64,000 bases of DNA from Bacteriovorax sp. (GTDB lineage Bacteria > Bdellovibrionota > Bacteriovoracia > Bacteriovoracales > Bacteriovoracaceae): the NCBI GenBank assembly GCA_014377485.1, contig JACMPM010000100.1, forward strand, positions 1 through 64,000, given 5' to 3'. Of this stretch, positions 26,142 to 44,963 are shown piece by piece. Both the position numbers and the translations under genes were made by a program. The stretch's first letter is position 1; every line of letters starts with the position of its first letter. Below the pieces are notes generated by a model. It made no database searches, had not been told where the DNA came from, and worked only from the letters and a program-made list of their open reading frames with translations.

Positions 26142-27695
26142 TTATAGATTTGATTCTATCGAGTTTATGTCTTTAGAGAGGGTAGAGTCAGTTTTTACTT
26201 TTTCGGCAATTGTGTTTACGGCATGAATAACTGAAGAGTGATCGCGGCCGCCAAAGAAGCTACCAATCTCTTGTTGTTTTGCGTTGACTACTTTACGGGC
26301 CAAATACATAGCAATATGTCGAGCTTTGGTAATGTCCTGGCTTCTGCCTTTCGATTTTAAGTCAGCTAGCGGGATTCTGAAGTACTGCGCTGTCGCTTTG
26401 GCGACATGTTCAATCGTAATTTCTTTTTCTGATTCGCTGTTAGGAAGCATTAACTGCTCTCTAACGAGGTCAATTTCAATTTCTACATTCATTAGTTCAC
26501 TTACAGCTTTAAGTCTCACTAATGAGCCCTCAAGCTCTCTAATGTTAGTTTTAATTCGTGAAGCGATTAATGTTAGAACATCTTCAGTTACATATAGGTC
26601 AAGTCCTTCCATTTTACGTCTTAAAATAGCAATTCTTGTTTCCAGGTCAGGTGGCTGAATATCAACAACCAGTCCCCATTGGAGACGAGTCTTAATTCGC
26701 TCAGATATACCATCAATTTCTTTTGGTCTTTTATCTGAAGTAAAGATAAGTTGCTTGCCTTTATTATGCATCTCGTTAAAGACATGAAAAAACTGATCTT
26801 GAGTTCCTTCTTTATTCTTTAATTCGTGGATGTCATCGATCATTAATACATCTACTTTTTCAGTGTATTTTTTAACGAATTCATTGATTCTGTTATTTTT
26901 CATTAACGTAATCATTTCATCCATAAAATCGCGGGCAGTAATCAAACAGACGGTTAGTCCTGGGTGTTTTTCGTTTATTTCATTGGCAACAGCATGTAGT
27001 AAGTGGGTTTTTCCTAACCCCGAATTACTATGCACATATAAAGATGGATATTTTCCGTTTTTACCTGGATTTTGTGCAACTGCTTTTGAAGCTGCCTGGG
27101 CCATATTATTGGTAGGTCCAACGATAAAATTATCAAACGTTTTAGAACGATCTATGATAATTCCGGACTGGTTTGGATTCATGTGCTCTATATATTGAGC
27201 GTGAGCTCTAGAAGTTAAATCATCTCTTGTAGGAGTGAGGTCTAGAGTAAACTTCACATCATTAAATGATTTATTGACTTGATTGGAAGGATTTTTGCCA
27301 AGTTGATAATCAGTTTGGTCACGACTTTCAATTATAACTTCGTACATAGTCCCTAAGACATTAAATAGGGCTTTCGTTATTTCTTCTTTATATAACTCAA
27401 CTGACTTTTTAATAAATGCTGTTTTAACTTCAAAGTTAACAGTCGATTCATTCATACTCTTTAGTTCTAGATTATTTTCAAAATAAGTCTTAAATTTTAG
27501 TTCTGGGACTACGGTCTGCAAATGGTTAAGAATCTCGTGATTAATTACACTTAGCTCTTCATCTTGGATAGGTTGTGAGTTTAAGTTGCTTATGTTTTGT
27601 GTATTTGTAGATTTAAATTGGTTATTGAAAGTTTCCGCTGTTGAGTTCTTGTTGCCGATTTTTAAAAAATGATCAAATGGAAAGTCATGCGCCAT
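26142..27695 (-). CDS. dnaA: Chromosomal replication initiator DnaA
   Basis: An AAA+ initiator of 517 residues from ATG 27695, which has CGGAGC upstream. A TTG 19 codons earlier is less likely. Walker A is GLGKTHLLHA and Walker B is VLMIDDIHEL. The C-terminal DNA-binding domain has KARHIAMYLAR and the DnaA signature GGRDHSSVIHAV. Domain I starts only near residue 48, after a polar Asn/Ser-rich N-terminal extension. Unlike the common dnaA-dnaN layout, dnaA and dnaN here are co-directional but separated by the origin. Confidence 0.96.
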   Translation of the reverse strand: MAHDFPFDHFLKIGNKNSTAETFNNQFKSTNTQNISNLNSQPIQDEELSVINHEILNHLQTVVPELKFKTYFENNLELKSMNESTVNFEVKTAFIKKSVELYKEEITKALFNVLGTMYEVIIESRDQTDYQLGKNPSNQVNKSFNDVKFTLDLTPTRDDLTSRAHAQYIEHMNPNQSGIIIDRSKTFDNFIVGPTNNMAQAASKAVAQNPGKNGKYPSLYVHSNSGLGKTHLLHAVANEINEKHPGLTVCLITARDFMDEMITLMKNNRINEFVKKYTEKVDVLMIDDIHELKNKEGTQDQFFHVFNEMHNKGKQLIFTSDKRPKEIDGISERIKTRLQWGLVVDIQPPDLETRIAILRRKMEGLDLYVTEDVLTLIASRIKTNIRELEGSLVRLKAVSELMNVEIEIDLVREQLMLPNSESEKEITIEHVAKATAQYFRIPLADLKSKGRSQDITKARHIAMYLARKVVNAKQQEIGSFFGGRDHSSVIHAVNTIAEKVKTDSTLSKDINSIESNL

Positions 27696-27813
27696 TGTGT
27701 GTGCTCCGAAAGTCTGCCAAAAATGTGAGACAAAATATGTAACATGGCCCAAAACTTAATAGCAACAAAACAGAGTTTCACATTTTCTTACATGTAACGC
27801 GTCTTGTTTGGTA

Positions 27814-28683: not shown

Positions 28684-30171
28684 ATGTTAAATTCAGATCA
28701 AAAACGCGCCTTTATAGCCGTTCTTCTCTCGGGAGTCGTCTTGTTTGGGTGGCAATATTACTTTGCTCCTAAAAACAATGAGAACACTCTCAAAACTACT
28801 GTAAAAGAAGAAATGGCTGCTACTAAATCAGGTGTTAAAAATAATGAAGGAACGACAATTGCTCCGACATTAAATGCAGGATCACCAACAACTGCAGCAA
28901 ATCAGCCAATGACTATTACTTCTAATTTATTAGTTAACAATGGATTTGAATTCCGTATAAATAACGACCTTTCAGTTACTGAAATGAAAAACCCTAACTC
29001 GGTTTTTAGTTTTGGTTCACTCACTGATTCATCTCTTCCTCTAAAAATACAAGCGGTAACAGATTACGGTCCAATAGATTTATTTTTTCAAATGGAGCAA
29101 CAAGGTCCAAATAAAGTTGTTGGGAAAAATCTTAATTACGGCGTTTCATTCACAGCTTCAATTTTAGAAAATGGTCGTGTTAATTTTAATTTAGCTTCCG
29201 AGAAACCTTATAAATACCGTTTTATCTTTGATGCTAAAGAGAAGAAACTTGATAACGGTCAAGTTCGTCAATTTGCACTTTTTGGCAATGAAGTAAAACA
29301 TATTGCAGTTTCAAAAGATAAAGATGAAGAAGCTACATTGAAGTGGTTTGGAGTTGATTTTAACTATCATTTATTTGCAGTCATTCTTAAAGACAAAACA
29401 CCCGCTAAATATAAAACGACAACAACAGGGCAATTGATTGTTGATGTTCCTACTGCTTCAAAATCAGTTACTGGCGATTTTGTTTTTACTAAGAAAAATT
29501 ACGATACACTTATCTCACTTGGCGACAATCTTCATTTATCTGTAGATTTTGGTTTTTTCGCAATCCTAGCTGTGCCAATTCTTCGTGGGCTTCAGTTTAT
29601 TCACAAATATATTCCCAACTATGGGATTGCGATTATCCTACTTACGATTCTTATACGTTTGATTACTTTTCCTCTTCAGTACAAATCTTTTAAAAGTATG
29701 AAGAAGATGCAAGGTATTCAACCAGAGCTTCAAAAAATTAAAGAAAAATATAAAGATGAACCGCAAAAAATGCAAAAAGAAACGATGGATCTCTTTAAGA
29801 AAGCTGGAGCAAATCCACTAAGTGGATGTCTTCCTCTTTTACTTCAGATGCCATTTTTCTTCGCAATTTATCGTGTTCTTTATAGTGCAGTTGAACTCGT
29901 AGGAGCTCCATTCTACGGATGGATTCACGACCTAAGTATTCACGATCCATTTTATGTTTTACCAGTTCTTATGGGCCTTGCAATGCTTGCTCAACAAAAA
30001 CTGACACCACAAACGACAGTGGATCCAACACAACAGAAAATTATGATGTTTATGCCTGTTGTTTTTGCATTTATCATGAAGAGCCTTCCTGCCGGTCTAG
30101 TTCTTTATATTTTTGTTTCAACAGTTGTTGGTATCGCACAACAAACGATTGTTTATAAAATGGCCGACTAA
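28684..30171 (+). CDS. yidC: Membrane protein insertase YidC
   Basis: A 495-residue insertase with an N-terminal membrane anchor (AVLLSGVVLFGWQYYF), a large periplasmic beta domain (about 80-275), and the conserved five-helix core from FFAILAVPILRGL. It includes IRLITFPLQYKSFKSM, whose Arg lies in the hydrophilic groove, and ANPLSGCLPLLLQMPFFFAIYRVL. It inserts inner-membrane proteins, including F0 subunits. TTTGGAG lies upstream of the ATG. Confidence 0.96.
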   Translation: MLNSDQKRAFIAVLLSGVVLFGWQYYFAPKNNENTLKTTVKEEMAATKSGVKNNEGTTIAPTLNAGSPTTAANQPMTITSNLLVNNGFEFRINNDLSVTEMKNPNSVFSFGSLTDSSLPLKIQAVTDYGPIDLFFQMEQQGPNKVVGKNLNYGVSFTASILENGRVNFNLASEKPYKYRFIFDAKEKKLDNGQVRQFALFGNEVKHIAVSKDKDEEATLKWFGVDFNYHLFAVILKDKTPAKYKTTTTGQLIVDVPTASKSVTGDFVFTKKNYDTLISLGDNLHLSVDFGFFAILAVPILRGLQFIHKYIPNYGIAIILLTILIRLITFPLQYKSFKSMKKMQGIQPELQKIKEKYKDEPQKMQKETMDLFKKAGANPLSGCLPLLLQMPFFFAIYRVLYSAVELVGAPFYGWIHDLSIHDPFYVLPVLMGLAMLAQQKLTPQTTVDPTQQKIMMFMPVVFAFIMKSLPAGLVLYIFVSTVVGIAQQTIVYKMAD

Positions 30172-30187
30172 GAAATGTTTTATACTT

Positions 30188-31747
30188 ATGAATTTTTATA
30201 CTGACGATCACCCTATCATTGCATGCAGTACTGGCACTCAAGCCAATACTGCCATTGCAGTGATAAGGCTTTCTGGTTTTAAATCTCTCTTATCTTTACA
30301 ATCTTTTTTCTCATTCTCTTTATCAAAAACTAAGCCGCGTTTTTCTCACCTATCAAATATAATTTTTGAAAATCAAATTTTTGATAATATACTGTTAGTG
30401 TTTTTTCCAGAAGGTGAGAGTTATACCGGTGAAAATGTTTTAGAACTCTCTGTTCACGGTAATTTATTAAATATTCAGAAAATTTTGGATCTTTTTATTC
30501 TTAATGCAGATTTTCGATCCGCCCATCCAGGTGAGTTTACTTATCGAGCACTTAAAAATAAAAAATTATCTCTTTCACAGGTTGAAGGCCTGGATATGCT
30601 TTTAAACGCTAATTCTAGTTTAATGCTTTCACAAGGCCTTGATATACTCCAAGGCGAGCTCCATACTCAATATATGCGCCTTTACGATAGTTTTTTGAAG
30701 CTTAAAGCTGCTGTAGAAATTTCGATAGATTTTTCTGAAGATGTAGGGGAGATGGAGTCTAATAAATTACTTAACGACTCTTTTAATTCTTTTTTTATAA
30801 TCCTGGAATCACTCCATGCCCGCACTCAAGGTAATATTTCTTCTCTTTTATCACCCGAAATGGTTTTAGTTGGTCAAACTAACGCAGGAAAGAGTTCTCT
30901 TTTTAACCTTTTAGTAAAACACAACCGCTCAATCGTTTCTTCCATTGCTGGGACCACTAGGGATTATATTTCCGAAGTGATTCATATCGATGGGACCAAT
31001 TATAATTTAGTCGACACTGCCGGTATTCGTGAATCAAAAGACGTTATTGAGAATATTGGAATAGATCGTGCCTTTGAAATTTTAAAGAGAGCATTTTTTA
31101 AGATTTTAATCGTTAATCCACTTGAAACAGATGAAGCTTATCTAGAAAAATTAGCTGGAATAGAATTTGATTTTTTAATCCTTTCTCACTCTGATAAAAC
31201 AGATTTTTTAAGCAAATCTTCCAATCTTGATTTATCAAAAATTATAGTTTCTCAAGTCGCTATTGCAAGCTTTGAAACTGGTTCTATAGGACCAGTAGAT
31301 CTTAAAATTTTTAAAAGTGGTCCCATAGGACCAGCTTTAAAAAGTGGTTCTATAGGACCACTCACAAAACATGGTCCTATAGAACCACTTACTAAAAATA
31401 CTGCCCCTATAGAACCATTCGCAACAAGTGGTTCTATAAAACCAGTGGAACCAAAAAGTATTAAAATTTCTGGTCCTATAGAACCACTTGTAAAGAGTTT
31501 ATTAGCTGAAAAATTTGGGATAGAGACGAGCAATAGTCCGATTTTACTTGAAAGACATAGAATATGTATAAATAATTTATACTTAAAAGCAACCACATTG
31601 TCTCGTAAAATCAATACTATAGGCGATATGGCTATCTTGTCATCTGAAATAAATATTTTTTCAAATTATCTGAGTGAATTGATCGGGATTATGTCGCCGG
31701 ATGATGTATTAAATTCAATATTTGCAAATTTCTGTATAGGGAAATAG
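30188..31747 (+). CDS. mnmE: tRNA modification GTPase MnmE with a repeat insertion
   Basis: MnmE acts with MnmG to modify the wobble uridine of tRNAs. From ATG 30188 it has 519 residues, against about 455 in most relatives. G1 is GQTNAGKSS (229-237), then GTTRDY and DTAGIRE with the catalytic Glu282. The G4 position reads SHSD instead of NKxD. The C-terminal FCIGK Cys motif is present. Residues 364-433 are a Gly/Pro/Ile repeat (GSIGP, GPIEP units) encoded by a palindromic DNA array, placed where the end of the G domain should be. The upstream in-frame extension overlaps yidC and is rejected. Confidence 0.93.
   Translation: MNFYTDDHPIIACSTGTQANTAIAVIRLSGFKSLLSLQSFFSFSLSKTKPRFSHLSNIIFENQIFDNILLVFFPEGESYTGENVLELSVHGNLLNIQKILDLFILNADFRSAHPGEFTYRALKNKKLSLSQVEGLDMLLNANSSLMLSQGLDILQGELHTQYMRLYDSFLKLKAAVEISIDFSEDVGEMESNKLLNDSFNSFFIILESLHARTQGNISSLLSPEMVLVGQTNAGKSSLFNLLVKHNRSIVSSIAGTTRDYISEVIHIDGTNYNLVDTAGIRESKDVIENIGIDRAFEILKRAFFKILIVNPLETDEAYLEKLAGIEFDFLILSHSDKTDFLSKSSNLDLSKIIVSQVAIASFETGSIGPVDLKIFKSGPIGPALKSGSIGPLTKHGPIEPLTKNTAPIEPFATSGSIKPVEPKSIKISGPIEPLVKSLLAEKFGIETSNSPILLERHRICINNLYLKATTLSRKINTIGDMAILSSEINIFSNYLSELIGIMSPDDVLNSIFANFCIGK
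31279..31486. repeat. Seven-copy array of a 16-bp palindromic repeat inside mnmE
   Basis: Copies begin at 31279, 31318, 31345, 31372, 31402, 31429 and 31471. The two main forms, TGGTTCTATAGGACCA (31279, 31345) and TGGTCCTATAGAACCA (31372, 31471), are exact reverse complements. The other three differ by one or two bases. Start-to-start distances (39, 27, 27, 30, 27, 42) are all multiples of three, so every copy is read in the same frame as GSIGP, GPIGP, GPIEP, APIEP or GSIKP. Spacers between copies are unrelated. Confidence 0.95.
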
Positions 31748-31794
31748 TCATTCTTCAATTTTTATATTACTAATTCAGAATAAAACAGAAGTGA

Positions 31795-31810
31795 TGTTCT
31801 ACGTGGAACA
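31795..31810. promoter_or_regulatory. parS-like ParB-binding site
   Basis: TGTTCTACGTGGAACA is a near-palindrome with 13 of 16 bases equal to the widespread parS consensus TGTTTCACGTGAAACA. It lies in the 65-base gap before mnmG, 3.5 kb from parB. Confidence 0.78.
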
Positions 31811-31812
31811 AT

Positions 31813-33666
31813 ATGATAAATAATTTCGATATTCTTATTATTGGTGGTGGTCATGCAGGCGCGGAAGCAGCTTGGATTTCTTCTCAGTTTGATTTAAAAA
31901 TTGCGCTCATTTCTTCACCAAACGCTTCACTAGCTTCGGCTCCCTGTAATCCGGCAATCGGTGGTGTGGGTAAGGGTCAAGTAGTCAGAGAAATTGATGC
32001 TCTCGGAGGATTGATGGGAATTCTTGCTGATAAGGCCGGAATTCAATTTCGAACCTTAAATGAGTCGAAGGGATTTGCAGTTCAGTCAACTCGCGTTCAG
32101 GTTGATAAAGATCTTTATACAAAAAACGCTGAAGCACTATTGGGTCAATTAGATAATTTAACTATTATTCGAAAGATGGTTTTGAACGTAGCCAAAGATG
32201 ATGATACTTTTTTTGTGACCACAGTAGACAATAATAAATACATTGCTAAAAAAATTATTGTAACGACGGGGACATTTCTCAATGGAAAGCTCCATACCGG
32301 AGAAGATCAAAAAGCTGGTGGAAGGGTAGATTGTGAAAAATCTGTTGGATTAAATGATTTATTTCAAGATATAAAAACTCTTCCCAATAGGTTTAAAACT
32401 GGTACACCACCGAGACTTGATAAAAAAACAATCGATTATTCGAAGATGGATCCACAAGACAGTGATCCAGAAACAAGAAACTTTCATGCTCTAAACGCAC
32501 CATTCACTAGAGAATCAACCCAAGTTTCTTGTTACCTCACTAAAACCAATGCTCAAACACTATCGATAATTAGGTCAAATAAAGATAGATCTCCTATTTT
32601 TAATGGTCAGATTAAAGGTGTTGGACCTCGTTATTGTCCAAGTATCGAAGATAAAGCCTTTCGTTATACTGAAAAAGACGTTCATCATATCTTCATCGAA
32701 CCAGAAGGATTGAATTTAGAAACGATTTATCCCAATGGGGTATCTACTTCGTTACCAAAAGACGTCCAAGAGAGCTTTGTTCAGACAATTTTGGGACTGG
32801 AGAGCGCAAAAATACTTATTCATGGATATGCTGTCGAATACGACGTGGTTGATACTTCTCAACTTTCAAAAGCAATGGAGTATAATTCTATTCCTGGTTT
32901 ATACTTTGCTGGCCAAGTTTGTGGAACTTCTGGGTATGAAGAAGCAGCTGGACAAGGAATTATTGCAGGAATAAATGCAAGTTTCGCCCTTATGAATAGA
33001 GAACCTCTAGTTTTAGATAGAACTGACTCTTATATTGGCGTAATGATCGAAGATTTGGTTACAAATAAGCGAGATGAGCCTTATAGGCTCTTTACTGCTC
33101 GGTCTGAAAATAGATTATATGTTCGCGAGGATAATACGATTTCTCGCATGAGAAAATATAGAAGAGAGCTTGGTTTGTTTACTCGTTTAGATTTATTTCA
33201 AGAAGATTTTCTGGAAGAAGTAGAACTTTTAAAGAAATTAGTCGATTCAACAATGATTTACTCTAATGAAGAAACAAAAAAATACTTTATAGTGCATAAT
33301 TATGGCCCACTAGATATTAATATCAGCTTTAAGGAACTATTAAAGAGACCTGAAAATAGTCCCGTTGTCGTTCTTGATCGTGAGACAAAACGTTTTGGCG
33401 TATGTTTTAGTATTGATGTAGTTCGAACGGTTGCTATTTCGGTTAAATACGAAGGCTATATCGATAGAGCTATTATCGAATCCGAAAAGATAAACAGACT
33501 AGGAAAGAAGAAGCTTAACTGGGAATCACTTGTTGAATCAAAAAATATTTCCTTTGAATGCAAATTAAGAATTAAAACAATTAAACCCGAAACATTTGCC
33601 CAATTGCAGAGAATAGAAGGAATAAGACCCGCTACCTTAGCATACGTGGCCGGAAACATAATTTAA
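31813..33666 (+). CDS. mnmG: tRNA uridine 5-carboxymethylaminomethyl modification enzyme MnmG
   Basis: A 617-residue FAD enzyme that partners MnmE. The FAD motif is IIGGGHAGAEAA. Other family landmarks are GIGGVGKGQVVREIDALGG-like sequence near residue 47, PNRFKTGTPPRL, the redox Cys in RYCPSIEDK, and GLYFAGQVCGTSGYEEAAGQG. The start ATG is two bases after a parS-like site. The stop overlaps the rsmG ATG by one base. Confidence 0.96.
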   Translation: MINNFDILIIGGGHAGAEAAWISSQFDLKIALISSPNASLASAPCNPAIGGVGKGQVVREIDALGGLMGILADKAGIQFRTLNESKGFAVQSTRVQVDKDLYTKNAEALLGQLDNLTIIRKMVLNVAKDDDTFFVTTVDNNKYIAKKIIVTTGTFLNGKLHTGEDQKAGGRVDCEKSVGLNDLFQDIKTLPNRFKTGTPPRLDKKTIDYSKMDPQDSDPETRNFHALNAPFTRESTQVSCYLTKTNAQTLSIIRSNKDRSPIFNGQIKGVGPRYCPSIEDKAFRYTEKDVHHIFIEPEGLNLETIYPNGVSTSLPKDVQESFVQTILGLESAKILIHGYAVEYDVVDTSQLSKAMEYNSIPGLYFAGQVCGTSGYEEAAGQGIIAGINASFALMNREPLVLDRTDSYIGVMIEDLVTNKRDEPYRLFTARSENRLYVREDNTISRMRKYRRELGLFTRLDLFQEDFLEEVELLKKLVDSTMIYSNEETKKYFIVHNYGPLDINISFKELLKRPENSPVVVLDRETKRFGVCFSIDVVRTVAISVKYEGYIDRAIIESEKINRLGKKKLNWESLVESKNISFECKLRIKTIKPETFAQLQRIEGIRPATLAYVAGNII

Positions 33667-34304
33667 TGAAAGATTTTAGCCAAAAGTACCTAGAGCTGCT
33701 CACTGGAGAATTTGCTGGGATAAATTTAACCAAAATACAAAGTCCCGAAGAGTTTTATCAAAAACAAATCGTAGACTCAGTACTTCCACAAACAGAAAGC
33801 AAGGTTTTTAAAAATGCACTTGAAGCTACAAAACTTCTAGTTGATGTTGGCTTTGGTGGTGGTTTTCCCGTTCTGCCATTAGCATTTATGAACCCAGATA
33901 AAAAATTTATTGGTTTTGATGCTCGTGCTAAAAAAGCTCAGACTGTTCAAAAAATTGCCAATATCTTGGGCTTAACAAATGTCAAATTAAAACATCAGAG
34001 ACTAGAGGTTGTGGACTTTGATATGGACGTGGTCATTACATTCAAAGCAGTGGGAAAAGTTTCAGATTATCTTCCGCTTTTGCGCACTAGCAAAACCCTG
34101 TATGTCTTTTTTTATAAAGGACCAAACTTTTATGAATTAGAAGATATAGAAGCAATGCTTGAAAAGGATTGGGAATTAATTGAAGAAAAATCTTATGATG
34201 TCCCAGGAACCGAAGGTCGTCTTTTATTGGGTTTCAAAAATAGAAAAGTTCTACGTGGAACAATTCAAACAGAAAAAATTATTAAATTTTCTGAGTTACT
34301 TTAA
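33666..34304 (+). CDS. rsmG: 16S rRNA (guanine-N7)-methyltransferase RsmG
   Basis: A 212-residue SAM-dependent methyltransferase that modifies G527 of 16S rRNA. The SAM-binding loop is VDVGFGGGFPVLPLAF, followed by FIGFDARAKKAQTVQKIANILGL. Position between mnmG and parA is the standard origin-proximal order. The last quarter of the gene contains a second parS-like site within the codons for VLRGT. Confidence 0.92.
   Translation: MKDFSQKYLELLTGEFAGINLTKIQSPEEFYQKQIVDSVLPQTESKVFKNALEATKLLVDVGFGGGFPVLPLAFMNPDKKFIGFDARAKKAQTVQKIANILGLTNVKLKHQRLEVVDFDMDVVITFKAVGKVSDYLPLLRTSKTLYVFFYKGPNFYELEDIEAMLEKDWELIEEKSYDVPGTEGRLLLGFKNRKVLRGTIQTEKIIKFSELL
34247..34262. promoter_or_regulatory. Second parS-like ParB-binding site (inside rsmG)
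   Basis: AGTTCTACGTGGAACA is identical to the 31795 site except for the first base, although it lies in coding DNA. Two copies 2.4 kb apart and just upstream of parA-parB support a true partition site. Confidence 0.75.
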
Positions 34305-34355
34305 TAGATTAAACTTGTATAAATACTCTACAAATACGAAAAAAAGGAATCATAA

Positions 34356-35273
34356 ATGGCTAAAATTATAGCAATGATGAACCAAAAAGGTGGAGTTGGT
34401 AAAACAACATCTTCTGTAAATTTGGCGGCGTGTCTAGCAGTAGCCGAGAAAAAAACTCTACTAATAGACCTTGACCCGCAGGGCAATGGAAGTATCAGTA
34501 TTGGCCTATCAAAAGATAAATTCGCAGGGAAAAATATTTACCATGCTCTTATCGGCCAGATTGGTTTGAAAGAAGCTATTTATGAATCAGAGCTTCCGTA
34601 CTTTGATATTTGCCCTTCTGATAATAATTTATCAGGTGCAGAAATTGAATTAGTAAGTTTGTTTGCACGTGAATCAAAATTAAAAAATGCCTTTAAAGCA
34701 ATTGAAAAAGATTACGATTATATCATCATCGATTGTCCTCCATCGCTAGGTCTATTAACTGTGAACGCCCTCAATGCAGCTCACTCATATATTGTACCTA
34801 TGCAAACAGAATTTTTGGCAATGGAAGGCCTTGCTCAATTATTAAATACGGTAAAATTAATTCGTTCATCATTAAATCCAGATTTAGAATTAGATGGGAT
34901 TTTATTAACGATGTATGATTCTCGTTCAGGTCTTCATAAGCAAGTAGTCAATGAAATTAAAACTCATTTTGGCGATGTTGTTTTCAATACAATTATTCCA
35001 AGAAATGTGAAGCTTGCTGAGTGCCCAAGTTTTGGAAAACCAATCATCCTTTATGATATCGAATCAAAGGGAAGTGAAGCTTATTTGGCATTGGCCAAAG
35101 AGCTTATTCTTAAAGAACGATTTAAAGGTAATTCGAAAGAAAATTCAAAAGAAACATCAGCGAAGAATAATGGATCATCAAGTGTCGCTCAGGAAATCAA
35201 ACTTCCAGAAGAAGAATTGCTCGATATTATTCCCGGACTAGAAACTATTAACTTTGATGGAATTCAAATTTAA
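34356..35273 (+). CDS. parA: Chromosome partitioning ATPase ParA (Soj)
   Basis: A 305-residue deviant-Walker ATPase: MMNQKGGVGKTTSSVNLA carries the signature Lys, followed by LLIDLDPQGN and YIIIDCPPSLGLLTVNAL. It forms nucleoid-bound gradients that move ParB-parS complexes. The C-terminal 45 residues after LILKER are a polar, Ser/Asn/Lys-rich tail not usual for Soj proteins. AAAGGAA precedes the ATG. parB follows after 23 bases. Confidence 0.95.
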   Translation: MAKIIAMMNQKGGVGKTTSSVNLAACLAVAEKKTLLIDLDPQGNGSISIGLSKDKFAGKNIYHALIGQIGLKEAIYESELPYFDICPSDNNLSGAEIELVSLFARESKLKNAFKAIEKDYDYIIIDCPPSLGLLTVNALNAAHSYIVPMQTEFLAMEGLAQLLNTVKLIRSSLNPDLELDGILLTMYDSRSGLHKQVVNEIKTHFGDVVFNTIIPRNVKLAECPSFGKPIILYDIESKGSEAYLALAKELILKERFKGNSKENSKETSAKNNGSSSVAQEIKLPEEELLDIIPGLETINFDGIQI

Positions 35274-35296
35274 GGCTTAAACCTTACGGAGTTGTT

Positions 35297-36244
35297 ATGG
35301 CCAAAAAACTAGCATTAGGAAAAGGGATCGCTTCATTACTTCAAGAGTCGACTCCGCAATCGGTAGTCAGTCAAACTTATCATAATAAGTTTGGAAATAT
35401 GAATGAAGATGAGCAACACGAGCAAGCGCAAGAAAAAGAAGTCGAAATTCGCTATGAGAATTCACCACTTCTGGTTGACGTTGGTTCTATTAAAACCAAT
35501 CCAAATCAACCAAGAAAAATATTCAAAGAAAAAGATCTTGAAGAACTTGCAGAATCAATAAAAGAAAATGGAATAATTCAACCGCTTGTCGTAGCGGAAT
35601 TAGAGAATGGTCAGTTTGAACTAATTGCGGGAGAAAGACGTTTAAGAGCTGCTAAAAAAGCAGGTCTTGAACAAGTTCCTGTAGTTGTTAAGAGAGCGAC
35701 AGATCGTGAAAAAATGATCATGTCTATTATAGAAAACGTTCAACGTGCAGATCTAAACTGTGTTGAAGAAGCACTTGCTTACTACCAACTAATGAACGAA
35801 TACAAATTAACTCAAGAAGATGTGGCCAAGAAGCTTGGAAAAGAGCGATCGACAGTAGCAAACTTTTTGAGAATTCTAAACCTTCCCCGTCCAGTAATAG
35901 ATCTTCTTCAAAAAGAGATGCTCTCATTTGGGCACGCGAAGATTTTAGCAGCCGTTAAAGAGCGTGAGGATGCCATTAGACTGGCAAACGTTGCAGTAGC
36001 TAATGGTTGGTCGGTTCGTGACCTAGAAAACGGAATAAAGGCTAAAAAGCCTATAAAAGAAAAAGCTGAACGAAAAAATCCATTTTTTGATGAAAAGCTT
36101 GATCAATTTAGAAAGACTCTAGAGCAAAAAACAGGATACCACTTTGGTATTAACTCGGGGAAAAATGGAACTGGTCATATCGTTCTTAAATTTAGCAATG
36201 AAGCAGAATTTAACGATATTTACGAATTTCTATTATCGAAATAG
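35297..36244 (+). CDS. parB: Chromosome partitioning protein ParB (Spo0J)
   Basis: A 315-residue CTP-dependent clamp. The N-domain has NPNQPRKIF and the GERRLRAAKKAG nucleotide motif. A helix-turn-helix region (LTQEDVAKKLGKERSTVANFLRIL) reads parS, and a C-terminal dimer domain ends the protein. An unusually acidic stretch (about 35-55) precedes the NPNQPRK motif. It should bind the two parS-like sites upstream. Confidence 0.95.
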   Translation: MAKKLALGKGIASLLQESTPQSVVSQTYHNKFGNMNEDEQHEQAQEKEVEIRYENSPLLVDVGSIKTNPNQPRKIFKEKDLEELAESIKENGIIQPLVVAELENGQFELIAGERRLRAAKKAGLEQVPVVVKRATDREKMIMSIIENVQRADLNCVEEALAYYQLMNEYKLTQEDVAKKLGKERSTVANFLRILNLPRPVIDLLQKEMLSFGHAKILAAVKEREDAIRLANVAVANGWSVRDLENGIKAKKPIKEKAERKNPFFDEKLDQFRKTLEQKTGYHFGINSGKNGTGHIVLKFSNEAEFNDIYEFLLSK

Positions 36245-36262
36245 AATAAGTTAAGACAAAAA

Positions 36263-36306
36263 GAATTGAGGTCCTATTAAGCTTCATGCCCCTATAGGAC
36301 CAATTC
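36263..36306. repeat. Hairpin with a repeat copy between parB and the bactofilin gene
   Basis: GAATTG-AG-GTCCTAT on the left pairs with ATAGGACCAATTC on the right (13 pairs, a two-base bulge). The right arm lies in TGCCCCTATAGGACCA (36287-36302), which matches the 16-mer of the mnmE array at 14 of 16 bases. No T-tract follows, so intrinsic termination is doubtful. It could protect RNA ends or bind protein. Confidence 0.65.
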
Positions 36307-36324
36307 ATACTCAAGGATGAAGTC

Positions 36325-36675
36325 ATGCAAAGACGACGTGGAGAAGTATCTGCCATTATCGAAGAAGGTTGTAAATTTGAAGGAAACTTATCTTTCAATG
36401 GTACGGCCAGAATAGCAGGGATCGTAAACGGAAGTGTTTTTTCAAATGATACAGTCGTCATTTCAGAAGGGGCGATCATCAACGCCGACATCAACGCTAA
36501 CATCATCATCATTGCAGGATCTGTAAAGGGAAACATCAAAGCGAGTTCTCGCGTTGAGATTTTAAAACCCGCAAGATTTGAAGGAATTATTACGACGCCA
36601 AGTCTCATTGTTGAAGAAGGCGTAATATTCCACGGCACAACAAAAATGCGTGACAAGAAAAATACTCAAACCTAA
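36325..36675 (+). CDS. Bactofilin
   Basis: A 116-residue protein of the bactofilin family (DUF583). A repetitive beta-helix core is seen in AIIEEGCKFEGNLSFNGTARIAG, VNGSVFSNDTVVISEGAIINADI and GNIKASSRVEIL, with short polar ends. Bactofilins polymerise without nucleotide into membrane-associated scaffolds for cell shape or for ParA/ParB positioning. Location directly after parAB, as in several proteobacteria, fits the latter. Confidence 0.9.
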   Translation: MQRRRGEVSAIIEEGCKFEGNLSFNGTARIAGIVNGSVFSNDTVVISEGAIINADINANIIIIAGSVKGNIKASSRVEILKPARFEGIITTPSLIVEEGVIFHGTTKMRDKKNTQT

Positions 36676-36706
36676 TCGCGTTATATTGCATTAACCTTAA
36701 ATTTTC

Positions 36707-36735
36707 TTGACGATAAACGCTTAAAACATTATTCA
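36707..36735 (+). promoter_or_regulatory. Probable promoter of the atpF'-F-H-A-G-D-C operon
   Basis: TTGACG and TATTCA are 17 bases apart. Transcription from here would start at about 36742, after the first in-frame GTG (36739) of the next gene, which supports the downstream ATG 36823 as the true start. Confidence 0.5.
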
Positions 36736-36822
36736 TAAGTGAAAAAAATATTCACCGATATCAATATTATTTTAACGGGCTTTCGCTTCTCGGAAGATCT
36801 TCGTCGGGAGTTATATAAGACA

Positions 36823-37266
36823 ATGGATACGATTGTAATAATTTTAAAGGCCCTAAAGATCGATCAGACGGTTCTCATCCAATTCGGAATGTTATTGATA
36901 TTTTTTAATACAATAGCACCTCTGTTATTTAAAAAAATTCAAGCTGTACTGGAACTTAGAGAAAGCAAAACGGTAAAACTAGAGTCCCATGCACATAATG
37001 TTTACAAAAAAGCCGAAGATTTAGCAGAACAATACAAAGCAAAAGTTGAAAAAACTCATCAAGACTCTCAAGAAATTTCACAAAAAAAGAAATCTGATAT
37101 TTTAAATAAAGAAAAAGAAGTTTTAAAATCCGAAGAAGATAAACTCAGTTCAGAATATGAACTAAGAAAATCTAAAATTCTAAAAGAAATGTCGGAAAAA
37201 AGAACACTGATCATGTCTGAAGCTGACAAGCTGGCAGGCAATCTTGTTGAAAAACTTACTAAATAA
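36823..37266 (+). CDS. ATP synthase F0 subunit b' (b-like)
   Basis: A 147-residue stator protein: an N-terminal membrane helix (QFGMLLIFFNTIAPLLF) and a long Lys/Glu-rich coiled coil. It is directly before a second b-type gene, so it is called b'. I choose ATG 36823 (GGGAG 12 bases upstream). GTG 36739 would add 28 residues but lies at or before the predicted transcription start. It would link F1 to the a subunit as a b/b' heterodimer. Confidence 0.8.
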   Translation: MDTIVIILKALKIDQTVLIQFGMLLIFFNTIAPLLFKKIQAVLELRESKTVKLESHAHNVYKKAEDLAEQYKAKVEKTHQDSQEISQKKKSDILNKEKEVLKSEEDKLSSEYELRKSKILKEMSEKRTLIMSEADKLAGNLVEKLTK

Positions 37267-37275
37267 GGAATCGTA

Positions 37276-37821
37276 GTGAAAAAGATAATCTATTATTCAT
37301 TTTTGATGACATCGTTTCTCTCGGTTGCAGTTGCAAGCGAAGAAGCTGTTCAACATGAAGCTTCTATTTGGGATTTAAAATATCCTTTTATTAATTTTAT
37401 AATACTATTAGCGATACTTTCAAAGGTAGTTAAGCCTTTAAGAGAAAAATTTAACAAACAAGCAGATGACGTTAAATCACTTATGGATTCTGCAGCAAGA
37501 AATAATAAAGATGCTGAAGATAGATTAAATAAGTTTCAAGCAAAAGTTAAAAATCTGGATTCAGAACTGGTCAAGATAATTGCTGAATATGAATCAGACG
37601 CTGCTCAATTTGCTAAAAATCAAAGCGAAGAAACACAAACAACAATTGCTCGAATGAAACGCGATCTTGAAAATAAATTAGATGGCGAGAAAACGGAATT
37701 AATAGATGAGTTGAATCATGACCTGATTAATAAAGTTGTATCAAGCACTAAGGCAACAATTAAAAGCAATAAAGATTTCCAAGTCAAGGCAACACAAAAA
37801 ATTGTATCCGAACTTAGATAA
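37276..37821 (+). CDS. atpF: ATP synthase F0 subunit b
   Basis: A 181-residue peripheral-stalk subunit. It starts with a signal-peptide-like segment (FLMTSFLSVAVASEEA), then WDLKYPFINFIILLAIL as the membrane helix, and a long charged coiled coil (about 55-181). GTG start at 37276, 9 bases after atpF'. An N-terminal leader on subunit b is shared with a and c in this genome. Confidence 0.88.
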   Translation: MKKIIYYSFLMTSFLSVAVASEEAVQHEASIWDLKYPFINFIILLAILSKVVKPLREKFNKQADDVKSLMDSAARNNKDAEDRLNKFQAKVKNLDSELVKIIAEYESDAAQFAKNQSEETQTTIARMKRDLENKLDGEKTELIDELNHDLINKVVSSTKATIKSNKDFQVKATQKIVSELR

Positions 37822-37842
37822 TCGTTTGTAGATAGGAATAAA

Positions 37843-38382
37843 ATGAAAGAGCAAATTATCGCCAAAGCATATGCCCAATCAATAGTAGAACTTTCAGAAG
37901 AGTTGAAACTAGATTTAGCAAAAGAATTAACCTCGCTTAGCGAAGCAATTAATACAAGTAACGATCTTGAAACCTTGCTATTCTTAGATGTTTTTACTGT
38001 TGAAGAAAAATTAAGTGTTCTTAATACTGTAATGGACAAATTAAACTTGTCTCAAATTACAAAAAACTTTCTTCATTTTTTAATCCAGGAAAAAAGAATT
38101 GGTTTAATGCCAATGATTTTCAAAAACGTAATTGTAATTGATGATCATAAAAAAGGTTTTTTAAGAGGAACAATTGAGGGAAGTGAAGACTCAATTCCAG
38201 TAGATGTTAAAGAAAAGCTTAAATCTTATCTTCAACAAAAACTCGGAAAAGAAACTATTTTAGAATATATAAAAAATGAAAACGTTTCAGCTGGATATAA
38301 AGTTACAGTTGAAGACCTTCAGTTAGATGCGTCCCTAGAAAATCAATTAGAAAAATTTAAAGAAAGTGTTTTAAATTCGTAA
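37843..38382 (+). CDS. atpH: ATP synthase F1 subunit delta
   Basis: A 179-residue delta subunit that holds the peripheral stalk to the top of F1. Family features are the N-terminal IIAKAYAQSIVELSEE helix bundle and the central ITKNFLHFLIQEKRIGLMP. The C-terminal beta part (GFLRGTIEGSEDS, NVSAGYKVTVEDLQLDASLENQLEKFKES) is also typical. It follows atpF by 21 bases and precedes atpA by 10. Confidence 0.93.
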   Translation: MKEQIIAKAYAQSIVELSEELKLDLAKELTSLSEAINTSNDLETLLFLDVFTVEEKLSVLNTVMDKLNLSQITKNFLHFLIQEKRIGLMPMIFKNVIVIDDHKKGFLRGTIEGSEDSIPVDVKEKLKSYLQQKLGKETILEYIKNENVSAGYKVTVEDLQLDASLENQLEKFKESVLNS

Positions 38383-38392
38383 GAGGTAAAAA

Positions 38393-39901
38393 ATGGCAAT
38401 GAATCCAGAAGAGATTACAAGTATTATCAAAGAAAGAATCTCTAACTTTCAAACAAGACTTCAAGTAGATGAAGTTGGAACTGTTTTAACTGTAGGAGAC
38501 GGGATTGCTCGCGTTTTCGGGTTAAAAAATGTTATGGCCGGAGAACTAGTAGAGTTCCCATCTGGTACAACTGGAATGGTACTTAACTTAGAAACAAATA
38601 ACGTCGGTGTTGCAATTCTTGGAGAAGACCAATCTATTAAAGAAGGGACTTCTGTAAAGAGAACTGAAAGAATCGTAAGTGTTCCTGTTGGTGACGCTCT
38701 TCTTGGTCGCGTAGTAAACGCAATCGGTGAGCCAATCGACGGAATGGGCGAAATAAAGTCAAAAGAATTTAGAGTTGTAGAAGTAAAAGCTCCAGGGATT
38801 ATCGCAAGAAAATCTGTACATGAGCCTCTTCAAACAGGTCTTAAAGCAATTGATTCTATGATTCCAATTGGACGTGGACAAAGAGAGCTTATCATTGGCG
38901 ATAGAAAAACTGGTAAAACAGCAATCGCTATCGACACTATCATCAACCAAAAAGGTAAAGATGTAATTTGTGTTTACGTAGCAATTGGACAAAAACAATC
39001 TACGGTAAGACAAGTTCAGCAAAAATTAAAAGATGCTGGAGCGCTTGAATATACAATCATCGTTTCTGCAACTGCTTCGGCTTCTGCTCCTATGCAGTTC
39101 ATTGCACCGTACACTGGTTGCACAATGGCTGAATACTATAGAGACAGTAAACGTCACGCACTTATCGTGTATGATGATTTAACAAAACAAGCTCAAGCTT
39201 ATAGACAGATGTCTCTTCTTCTTCGTCGCCCGCCGGGACGCGAAGCATTTCCAGGTGACGTATTTTTCCTTCACTCAAGATTACTAGAAAGAGCTTGTAA
39301 AGTTTCTGACGCTCTTGGGGCCGGATCGTTAACTGCTCTACCAATTATTGAAACACAAGAAGGGGACGTTTCGGCGTACATTCCTACAAACGTTATTTCA
39401 ATTACTGATGGTCAGATTTTCCTTGAATCGGATTTATTCAACTCGGGTGTTCGTCCAGCTGTTAACGTTGGTCTTTCGGTTTCTCGCGTTGGTGGTTCTG
39501 CTCAAATTAAAGCGATGAAAAAAGTTGCTGGTACTCTTCGTCTTGATCTTGCTCAGTACAGAGAGCTAGCGGCTTTCGCGGCATTCGGATCTGACCTGGA
39601 TGAAGCGACAAAAAGACAGCTTAATAGAGGAGAGAGATTGGTTGAACTATTAAAACAAGATCAATACGCTCCTTTTGATGTTATCGATCAATCAGTTTCA
39701 ATTTTAATTGCGACTAAGGGATATTTCGATGTTGTCCCAACACCAAAAATTAGAATCGCTGAAAAAGATGTTCTTGAATTCTTCCATTCAAGACATACGG
39801 ATTTAATGGCAGAAATTAAAGCAGCGAGAGAAATCTCAGGTGCAAATGAAACAAAAATCCTAGAAGCAGTTAAAGCTTTCTTAGCAACTAAAAAATACTA
39901 A
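38393..39901 (+). CDS. atpA: ATP synthase F1 subunit alpha
   Basis: This 502-residue non-catalytic nucleotide-binding subunit has Walker [11 protein letters not shown] near residue 169 and the family signature [17 protein letters not shown]. The N-terminal beta-barrel starts [22 protein letters not shown]. Length and motifs are normal. RBS AGAGGT precedes the ATG. Confidence 0.98.
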
Positions 39902-39937
39902 GAGATAGTCGGACACTTGGAAATTAGGAATTAAATA

Positions 39938-42249
<2,312 letters not shown>

Positions 42250-42267
42250 TTTTTTTAGGACGAGCAA

Positions 42268-42693
42268 ATGAAATATTTTAGTGTTGATATCCTTACGCCT
42301 TCAAAAATAATTGCTAAAGGAATTCCTGCAGAATCGTTGCTTATCCCAACGGTTCGCGGGCAGATCAACGTTCTAGAAGGCCATACTCATATCGTAAGCA
42401 AGCTTGCGACGGGTGTATTAAGTGTTTTCGGTGGACCTGATTATGCCGACAGACATTTTGCGTTGTCTTCAGGTGTTTGTAAAATTTTGGAAAACAAAGT
42501 AGTTATCCTAGCAAATACAGCTGAAGAAAATACAGGCGTAGATGTTGAAAGAGCTAAGTTGGCACTTAAAAATGCAGTTGATCATTTAAAAAACACAGAC
42601 GGACTCTCTCTTGAAGACATTGAGAAGTATCAATTAAAAGTTGAGCTAGCTAAAATCCGCATTCAGATTGGTGAATTTACCAGACCACGATAA
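42268..42693 (+). CDS. atpC: ATP synthase F1 subunit epsilon
   Basis: A 141-residue protein with an N-terminal beta sandwich (FSVDILTPSKIIAKG, ESLLIPTVRGQINVLEGHTHIV) and a C-terminal pair of helices (VERAKLALKNAVDHL). This fits epsilon, the rotor-end inhibitor of F1. It is the last gene of the operon and is followed by a hairpin. Confidence 0.93.
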   Translation: MKYFSVDILTPSKIIAKGIPAESLLIPTVRGQINVLEGHTHIVSKLATGVLSVFGGPDYADRHFALSSGVCKILENKVVILANTAEENTGVDVERAKLALKNAVDHLKNTDGLSLEDIEKYQLKVELAKIRIQIGEFTRPR

Positions 42694-42702
42694 TTTAAGT
42701 AT

Positions 42703-42737
42703 TTTGAGTACTCAGTTTTTATAATTGAGTACTCAAA
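42703..42737. terminator. Hairpin of two TTGAGTACTCA palindromes after atpC
   Basis: TTTGAGTACTCA (42703-42714) and TGAGTACTCAAA (42726-42737) form a perfect 12-bp stem with an 11-base loop. Each arm is itself a palindrome (GAGTACTC), so the pair could be protein-binding sites. There is no T-tract after the stem. Confidence 0.5.
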
Positions 42738-42763
42738 TTCTACTAGGCAATAACATTCATTCC

Positions 42764-42791
42764 TTGAACCTACACATAGCTTTGTTAGAAT
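42764..42791 (+). promoter_or_regulatory. Promoter of the 719-residue envelope protein gene
   Basis: TTGAAC and TAGAAT are spaced by 16 bases. Transcription would start only about 6 bases before the ATG at 42804, where no Shine-Dalgarno is seen, so the mRNA may be nearly leaderless. Confidence 0.5.
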
Positions 42792-42803
42792 TATTTCATA
42801 GCT

Positions 42804-44963
42804 ATGATCACAAAAAAGACGTTCGTCACAACTTCAAGTTTTATATTAACAGCAGCTTTGCTGTCGCAAATCTATTCGTTTAAAAATACAAGAGACCAAT
42901 CACAATCACTTAATTATTCGGCATTTATTAATCTTTCTCAAAACGTAAAAAGTGTTTCTTCTATTGCCACAGACAGCTCAGTAGTTTCTGAGGATACAGT
43001 TATTACTAAAGATATTATTCAAGTGATTGATAAAGAAATCACAAAAAAAATAAATAGAACTCGCTATTCAATTCGAGTAATCAAAGCACTTATGCCTGCA
43101 AAAGAAGCAAAAAAGATAATTTCTAAAGTAGCAGTTAAAAAAGAAATTCAACAATTAGTGACGACATCAGTTATGAATGATGAAGATTTATCATTATATG
43201 AAATAAATAATTCGGGATTGATTAATCTTTATGCTTTATCTGTAGAAGATATGGCCTTTGCAAAATTTGAATCTGTTAAACTTGCAACTACGTATAATGA
43301 AGAAATAAAAGATGAAGTTGAAGTAGCCCAGGCAAGCACTTTTATTGCCCCTATAGAGGCAGACGTGGTCTCGACTACTCAACCAGAAAGAGATAATATT
43401 GATAATGTTTCAAGTACTAATATTGAAGAGAGTACCATTGCAGATTCAAAAGTTGTAAGCAAAGAAGATAAAGAAGATTCAGAAATGGTGATGTTTGACT
43501 ACTCAGATAAGTCAGCTCCGGCAGCAGTTAAAAAAACAATCGATCAAAAACTTTATGAACGTCCACTTTCTAAAACAGTTCAGCAGGCAATTAGTAGAGA
43601 GATTGGAAGCGTACCAGTAAAGAAATTAATGACAATGAATACTCAAAAAGTATTTCCAGAAGCAACTCAAGAAAGTATTACAAAAATAGATAATCAAGAG
43701 ATTGATTTAAACTCTGATAAAAATACTATTTATGACTATTCACAGTCTAAAAGTAAAAAATCAAAAACTGAAGCTCAAACTGCAGCGGCTGAAGTTGATG
43801 CCTTCATGGCTCCAGTAACTAAAACAGAAGAGTCACAATTTACCCTTAGAGCAAAAGAAATTAATTTGAGTACTCAAAAAAGACGACAAGCTTTAACGTT
43901 TGAATTCGTTCCCGACTATGACCGTGCTGAAAGAAGTGACGATCAGGGAAGCGGAGAGATTGCATTTGGTTACTCATTAAATGGCGAAATGAATACTCAA
44001 ACGGGAGTGCTTCAAGCTCAGGGAATGATATCTACTAGAGTAGAATTAAATCTTGGCGGAAAAGCAAATTATGAAGTTCCACTTATAAATGAAGAAGGAA
44101 TGCAGAAGTTTTTACAAAAACAAGGATTGTCGATTGAGGGAAATCTCATCATGCTGGCACTTGATCCTTCTATAATTGATACAGAAATTGATTCCAGGTT
44201 TGCAGCTAAATTTTTCTTCGATAAAAACTTTAAACCTGTGAGCTCTGCCAGTGGGGCAAGTGCTGTTATGTACGCCGGTGTGAAAACGGGGAATGTAATG
44301 ATTCGTTACCTGCTTAACAATAAAGAAAGTGCTCAGAAAATTGTTTATGTGGGCGATGGTGAGATGTATTTTGAGGATTCTGAATTTTTGGACAGCTATA
44401 GAGAGACTTTTACTTTCACAACTAGAAACTTGCTTGGTCAAAAAAGAAAAGAATTGATTATTGATGGTGGAGCGATCTCATATTTTAACACTAACAATAT
44501 AGCTAAGAAAAAAGCATTAAATGCCTATGATATAAAAATACCACCTCAAATAAGCGGTATGAGAAAATACCTGGAATTTAAGCATCTAAAAGATAGTATC
44601 TTTGTGGGTTCAGCAGGTGAAAAAGATATTGAAATTCCAAGCAACGACTTTATTGGAAAAGTTTTAGAAATGAATCAAGTGAGCAGTCTAAAAGATCGCT
44701 GTGTTGTTCAAATCAATCTTATGAAAGATTTGCGCGAGATAAAGGCCAACGGAAAAAATCGAAGTGGTGAAATGTTTGTAGAAACATCTTACCTAGATAA
44801 AGATGGTAACTTCTCACGAGATAGTGCTGAAATGGCGGAGAAGGTATTTATCGTTGGTGATCTTGAAGGACAGTTCAACGTTAAACTTGATTATACTGAC
44901 GGATCAACAGAGTTTCTTAAGACATTTTGTTCTGAAGGGACTTATCTAGTAGAGCAGCTTTAA
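42804..44963 (+). CDS. Large envelope protein of unknown function
   Basis: A 719-residue protein I do not recognise. It has an N-terminal hydrophobic segment (SSFILTAALLSQIYS) that is a signal or anchor. A low-complexity, Val/Ile/Asp/Glu/Lys-rich region follows (about 40-340). The C-terminal half is a globular, beta-rich domain (about 350-719, with two late Cys residues). The middle of the gene carries a 16-bp palindrome related to the mnmE repeat (43346) and a TTGAGTACTCAA site (43866). It has its own promoter and ends one base before the convergent patatin gene. The architecture suggests a periplasm-spanning stalk with a folded outer domain. Confidence 0.75.
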   Translation: MITKKTFVTTSSFILTAALLSQIYSFKNTRDQSQSLNYSAFINLSQNVKSVSSIATDSSVVSEDTVITKDIIQVIDKEITKKINRTRYSIRVIKALMPAKEAKKIISKVAVKKEIQQLVTTSVMNDEDLSLYEINNSGLINLYALSVEDMAFAKFESVKLATTYNEEIKDEVEVAQASTFIAPIEADVVSTTQPERDNIDNVSSTNIEESTIADSKVVSKEDKEDSEMVMFDYSDKSAPAAVKKTIDQKLYERPLSKTVQQAISREIGSVPVKKLMTMNTQKVFPEATQESITKIDNQEIDLNSDKNTIYDYSQSKSKKSKTEAQTAAAEVDAFMAPVTKTEESQFTLRAKEINLSTQKRRQALTFEFVPDYDRAERSDDQGSGEIAFGYSLNGEMNTQTGVLQAQGMISTRVELNLGGKANYEVPLINEEGMQKFLQKQGLSIEGNLIMLALDPSIIDTEIDSRFAAKFFFDKNFKPVSSASGASAVMYAGVKTGNVMIRYLLNNKESAQKIVYVGDGEMYFEDSEFLDSYRETFTFTTRNLLGQKRKELIIDGGAISYFNTNNIAKKKALNAYDIKIPPQISGMRKYLEFKHLKDSIFVGSAGEKDIEIPSNDFIGKVLEMNQVSSLKDRCVVQINLMKDLREIKANGKNRSGEMFVETSYLDKDGNFSRDSAEMAEKVFIVGDLEGQFNVKLDYTDGSTEFLKTFCSEGTYLVEQL

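Follow-up and report, generated by a model that had tools for sequence, protein, structure and literature searches.

The 16-bp palindrome TGCCCCTATAGGACCA found between parB and the bactofilin gene belongs to a palindrome family, TG(GT/CC)YCYATRGR(AC/GG)CA, which occurs in two half-site forms, is conserved across the taxonomic family of the Bacteriovorax genome analysed here, is confined to the origin region and bears the marks of selection on DNA. Judging from its sequence and layout, this 16-mer rather probably belongs to a cluster of palindromic candidate protein-binding sites that is restricted to the origin, usually with 2 to 12 sites per genome, and at which a dimeric protein would organise or anchor the origin together with ParABS.

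The gap palindrome and its setting

The stretch of 64,000 nucleotides analysed here, referred to as the window, is an origin region carrying gyrA, gyrB, recF, dnaN, dnaA, rnpA, yidC, mnmE, mnmG, rsmG, parA, parB, bactofilin and atp genes, and its cumulative GC skew reaches a minimum at 30-32 kb. Seven window proteins were submitted to Pfam and the remaining gene names were assigned from the translations. The features surrounding the gap palindrome are the following.

26142-27752, minus strand: dnaA, named from its sequence
30113-31747, plus strand: mnmE open reading frame, with homology from near 30191; the array lies in a variable segment that separates the GTPase core from the C-terminal helical part
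35297-36244, plus strand: parB, with ParB_N and HTH_ParB domains (Pfam)
36263-36306, plus strand: 13-pair bulged stem enclosing the gap site, z -2.10, 7/200 shuffles equally stable
36270-36277, plus strand: upstream half-site GGTCCTAT, pairing with the right half of the 16-mer (folding)
36287-36302, no strand: origin-palindrome site of mixed form (CC half-site and GT half-site), a gap site in 13/13 same-genus loci
36325-36675, plus strand: bactofilin gene, downstream of the parB gap (Pfam)

An earlier note on this DNA had placed the 16-mer at 36287-36302, outside coding sequence, with 14 of 16 bases in common with a repeated array in mnmE. The 16-mer indeed occurs at that position, flanked by the stop of parB (36244) and the start of bactofilin (36325); 2/16 bases distinguish it from the array form TGGTCCTATAGGACCA and 1/16 from the array member at 31402. 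It carries one CC half-site, TGCCCC.

The same gap was compared in relatives. Named relatives of the window include Bacteriovorax sp. and Halobacteriovorax marinus. The palindrome was present in the gap of all 13 same-genus loci (L004-L016), two of which (L009, L010) showed one central mismatch, and in 3/9 other family genomes of the same panel; the flanks diverge. A larger set contained 36 records having both parB and bactofilin; an exact generalised site was found in the gap of 24, a site with one mismatch in 3 more, and the site was missing in 9.

Distribution, half-site forms and confinement of the motif

The core motif TGGTYCYATRGRACCA was searched in genomes of the phylum using its reversed pattern as a control. 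Exact matches anywhere in the genome were obtained for 70/72 genomes of the window's family and for 3/168 other genomes of the phylum, with one copy each, while the reversed pattern occurred in 3/240 genomes. G138, counted among the 70, is probably a chance positive, its sole copy lying in an unrelated gene. A generalised pattern, TGSYYCYATRGRRSCA, picked after both half-site forms had been seen, matched 110/115 family genomes (control 8/115, one copy each) and 70/70 of those with a completeness of 90% or more and a contamination of 5% or less. The five genomes of genus g5 hold 1, 0, 1, 2 and 2 exact generalised sites. One of them, G017, has no array in mnmE and no exact site in the 48 kb around its origin, its single exact generalised site lying outside; the same 48 kb contain three copies with a single mismatch, of which the first lies near parA and the other two lie just after atpC. 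The link to partition genes, previously offered as suggestive, is real and family-wide.

A blind search for repeated palindromes was carried out on 17 origin stretches, 12 around parB from 11 non-family genomes and five from the family, and every cluster of at least 3 copies was either parS or this motif. In the non-family stretches parS was the top cluster in 8/12, and the 12 yielded no cluster of at least 3 copies besides parS; a few A/T-rich pairs of 2 were seen. Within the family, the motif and parS were both recovered in G015 and G016, the motif only in G002, and parS only in G017 and G022, the latter being rich in CC forms that fall below the symmetry cut-off of the search. G022 carries an array of the CC half-site variant with a 24-bp period at a contig start (L125:18-249), running into mnmE.

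The two half-site forms were examined in 39 records (547 kb), a set that includes one duplicate (L081/L136), two strains from a single bin (L072, L074) and several cases of two stretches belonging to the same genome. Exactly two mismatches to TGGTYCYATRGRACCA were found in 39 matches, all 39 of them the CC variant, compared with 1.8 two-mismatch matches of any kind in block-shuffled sequence; at three mismatches there were 26 matches (7 CC) and 13 in shuffles. CC variants occur in several genera, both within and outside coding sequence. By this sequence evidence, which also speaks for specific recognition, the CC variant is a genuine form and not decay. The half-sites of the 211 sites of both forms combine as GT/GT in 166, CC/GT in 39, CC/CC in 3 and GC/GT in 3. 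These sites lie mainly in mnmE (158) and the parB-bactofilin gap (30), followed by positions just upstream of the L125 mnmE match (8), downstream of atp genes (5), in parB (3) and in mnmG (2), with one each at two places in or near yidC, in rsmG, in the bactofilin-atpF gap and in L128. As a side observation, the metagenome bin LF-bin-166 holds two origin regions (L072, L074), apparently from two strains.

Within the window's own genome (3.95 Mb, 147 contigs), all 8 exact generalised sites fall within 31279-43361 (12.1 kb), beside dnaA and parAB, in the mnmE array, the parB-bactofilin gap and at 43346; the reversed-pattern control returned 0 matches in this genome. The sites besides the gap copy are listed below.

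31279-31294, no strand: array site 1 in mnmE, TGGTTCTATAGGACCA, exact generalised match
31318-31333, no strand: array site 2 in mnmE, TGGTCCCATAGGACCA, exact generalised match
31345-31360, no strand: array site 3 in mnmE, TGGTTCTATAGGACCA, exact generalised match
31372-31387, no strand: array site 4 in mnmE, TGGTCCTATAGAACCA, exact generalised match
31402-31417, no strand: array site 5 in mnmE, CC half-site form TGCCCCTATAGAACCA, exact generalised match
31429-31444, no strand: array site 6 in mnmE, TGGTTCTATAAAACCA, one mismatch, outside the 8 exact sites
31471-31486, no strand: array site 7 in mnmE, TGGTCCTATAGAACCA, exact generalised match
43346-43361, no strand: third location, CC/CC palindrome TGCCCCTATAGAGGCA, within the gene after atpC

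Elsewhere in the genome two imperfect look-alikes were detected (C27:65635 and C90:15218). Against the refuting conditions set in the earlier note, no second intergenic copy exists in this genome, the other copies being inside mnmE and inside the gene after atpC, but conservation in relatives is clear.

The gene after atpC (42804-44963) encodes 719 amino acids, gave no Pfam match and is poorly conserved in the family, though its position is kept; the third palindrome location is either this gene or the gap preceding it. The same CC/CC form is present in the same gene in L070 and L079, and other sites occur downstream of atpC in further genera. Sites in the atpC neighbourhood were found in L070, L079, L080, G015, G022, G107, G231 and G037, and the copies in G107, G231 and G037 represent this recurrent place around or after atpC and not off-origin copies.

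The confinement extends to relatives. In G015, a nearly closed genome with a 3.44-Mb main contig, 9/9 sites lie in 3419873-3432515 (12.6 kb), and in the nine genomes with all sites located (G000, G002, G008, G009, G011, G015, G045, G078 and G097) 75/76 sites fall within a single stretch per genome that never exceeds 21 kb, the sole exception being a site of G009 that lies 113 kb away. G078 and G097 have one site beside atpB, which in the window sits on the other side of dnaA, and their site set may span the origin. Off-origin copies were observed as exact matches in G018 and G138 and with one mismatch in G006, G012, G010 and G021, all in coding genes; the G018 core site is about 37 kb from the bactofilin gene, inside an unrelated gene, and G012 seems to be without an origin contig. 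Read in context, these copies displayed no evident common theme, except for one gene common to G006 and G012, and they were taken as chance occurrences.

Selection on the mnmE array and competing explanations

The mnmE array encodes GPIEP/GSIGP-like peptides and was absent from 2/33 records; the MnmE sequences carrying array copies are 41-80% identical to that of the window. In copies defined at the protein level, isoleucine is encoded by ATA in 140/140 cases, compared with 22% of 1295 Ile codons in the rest of mnmE, and glycine by GGT in 167/170, compared with 31% of 740, the copies within a genome being tandem duplicates and not independent. Since the codons are locked in this way, copies lie in non-coding gaps and two mnmG copies fall in another reading frame (by longest open frame), the sequences indicate that the constraint acts on DNA and not on protein; the earlier note had taken the gap copy as an argument against a purely protein-level reason. 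A repeat maintained for the MnmE protein, with a chance resemblance in the gap, would agree with 152/154 mnmE copies being in one frame, the other two (L133) bordering a run of N; it is contradicted by the same codon lock, non-coding copies and mnmG copies, and we regard it as extremely unlikely. Just before the array insertion, at about residue 333 of MnmE (30191-31747), an HxD preceded by S or T in 19/19 aligned family members occupies the place where the GTPase motif NKxD is expected.

The earlier note had stressed the hairpin, which the analysis did not support as the main feature of the gap; the conserved unit is the 16-mer. The 13-pair stem with a 2-nt bulge exists as described (-16.2 kcal/mol in a fold of 36245-36324), and with 7/200 dinucleotide shuffles as good (z -2.10) it is by itself mildly unusual and close to chance. 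Comparison of the gap in relatives upheld the 16-mer (13/13 genus loci) more fully than the stem: in the four gaps with the CC form of the window (L004, L005, L007, L015) the 16-mer is kept in 4/4 and the long stem in 3/4, the upstream half-site GGTCCTAT being retained in L005, present as GGTTCTAT in L007 and lost in L015. An RNA element that terminates, attenuates or protects a transcript would draw on this 13-pair stem, on T-runs that follow it in some other species and on eight genus gaps in which the flanks pair and lengthen the palindrome stem, with 90.9% of cells paired (reached by 5/500 shuffles), a covariation score reached by 3/500 and two-sided changes at 3/11 pairs (55/500). However, the z value is small, the window's stem is followed by ATACTCAAGG and not by the T-run of an intrinsic terminator, the flanks of the copies in mnmE and of the remaining copies outside genes pair at close to the background level, and such an element would leave the array and the origin confinement unexplained. 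The commonest array form, GGT CCT ATA GAA CCA (72/170), also has an A-C mismatch as coding-strand RNA, which is poor for an RNA hairpin and fine for a protein dimer on DNA. We therefore judge an RNA element very unlikely as the general explanation; a lineage-specific RNA role of the gap stem is possible but secondary, because the eight genus gaps extend the palindrome into a longer stem. A terminator scan found nothing in the gap, being restricted to loops of 3-8 nt and blind to the 15-nt loop present here, and Rfam returned 13 sub-threshold matches, most of them to microRNA models on the array, and none above the gathering score in 30000-38000. Sub-threshold microRNA-like matches on both strands of the array (31269-31501) are probably an effect of the palindromes.

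The relation to ParB was considered next to the parS-like sites of the region. The parS consensus is TGTTYCACGTGRAACA, and sites with up to 2 mismatches to it were recorded as parS-like in the window and 25 loci, L093 being left out as an alphaproteobacterium. Two such sites neighbour the new site class in the window.

31795-31810, no strand: parS-like site TGTTCTACGTGGAACA, in the mnmE-mnmG gap, outside the new site class
34247-34262, no strand: parS-like site AGTTCTACGTGGAACA, at the 3' end of rsmG

These sites persist in the mnmE-mnmG gap of 23/24 family records and at the rsmG end of 22/26, and the idea that the palindrome replaced parS was rejected on this ground; two parS-like sites among the palindromes point instead to a second parS-sized site class. 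In 27/30 records the distance from the start of the last array site to the parS that follows is 302-396 bp; in the others it is 678, 2573 and 2792 bp. Several other family genera keep the perfect TGTTCCACGTGGAACA.

The palindromes might still be a second class of ParB sites, with ParB binding both parS and palindrome and gaining extra loading points on both sides of parAB. The length and dyad are those of parS, 10/16 positions are alike by inspection, including Y at position 5, the window's genus has imperfect parS copies, and an HTH_ParB match is single in the own genome and in 17/23 family genomes (more in 5/23, none in 1). Against this, at two fixed places parS retains a separate consensus, which the palindrome does not match. 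ParB contact positions were taken from PMC7383237 and mapped here onto the family ParB, whose recognition region has E and K at the positions corresponding to 172 and 204 of Caulobacter ParB; as far as the contacts described in that source go, these residues are common to G017, of a genus nearly without the motif, and partly to other families. They carry no signal of a switch in ParB specificity, which was rejected, and we consider binding by ParB itself unlikely. Operators of an ordinary transcription factor controlling mnmG, bactofilin and the gene after atpC would account for sites upstream of, or in the first part of, those genes, but an array of up to 11 copies inside a coding region, with the next gene about 300 bp downstream, would be an unusual arrangement for operators, no single regulon accommodates the sites in parB, rsmG, yidC and near atpB, and no off-origin copy whose context was read turned out to be a recurring promoter site, which makes this explanation quite improbable. 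A selfish palindromic repeat of the REP or Rickettsia-palindrome type would fit a copy number that differs between species and copies within coding sequence; it is contradicted by the confinement, since a mobile repeat would be dispersed genome-wide and here none or very few exact copies lie outside the origin region, so that we attach hardly any probability to it.

Proposed role and comparison with known systems

We thus favour a cluster of candidate protein-binding sites at the origin, and infer that a dimeric protein other than ParB binds them with a role in origin organisation or segregation. Each half-site, TGGTYCYA or TGCCCCYA, would be read by a dimeric DNA-binding protein, and the cluster lies around parS, being made up of the mnmE array, which precedes the first parS by about 300-400 bp, of sites in the parB-bactofilin gap and of sites downstream of atpC. 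A second nucleoprotein complex would most likely form in this way beside the ParB-parS centromere and organise, anchor or license the origin, much as RacA-ram anchors the origin of Bacillus. That the whole family, Bacteriovorax-type predators included, possesses a second centromere beside parS, not bound by ParB, which gates ParB loading or holds the origin during the cell cycle, is a tentative extension that we hold to be less probable than its opposite. Segregation sites are usually thought to be of one kind, parS, while here a second parS-sized palindrome is kept across a family; it supplies an exact DNA bait with which a new origin-binding protein could be sought and makes centromere control testable in predators with non-binary division.

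A literature search with four 14-mer forms of the motif gave no match, most subscription journals being outside the search, so prior publication is possible, and no description of the element appeared among the entries that further searches listed. Like parS, the element is a 16-bp palindrome present in several copies near the origin and parAB, with the similarity given above. It differs from parS by its core, YATR instead of ACGT, by G at position 3, by a second half-site form and by long arrays, and parS-like sites exist separately alongside it.

Bdellovibrio bacteriovorus is a predator of the same phylum. In this species, short DNA around parS is described as keeping ParB from clustering in non-replicating cells, and the passages concerned propose a factor acting on DNA next to parS and name no protein (PMC10547168). 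This offers a precedent for DNA beside parS governing ParB clustering; the site is unlikely to be the same, because the palindrome is nearly absent outside the family (3/168 non-family genomes), and the site or factor would differ.

The window has its bactofilin gene directly 3' of parB; in Myxococcus, a bactofilin is described as organising ParABS (PMC5703909). Noc and its sites, NBS, provide a palindrome class parallel to parS and read by a ParB relative, with NBS and parS differing at two positions according to PMC7383237. The palindrome resembles NBS as a parallel parS-like class and is origin-confined, whereas NBS are reported as scattered around the chromosome (PMC4331003). A second ParB-family HTH was not found in 17/23 family genomes, so a Noc-like paralogue was set aside as a candidate reader and, on these sequence grounds, is unlikely to be one. 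In the RacA-ram system of Bacillus subtilis, as PMC6593407 presents it, centromere-like sites are dense near the origin and a helix-turn-helix protein tethers the chromosome at the pole. The palindrome sites are likewise dense near the origin, while ram sites are described there as also spread over the rest of the chromosome, and the likeness is one of site layout.
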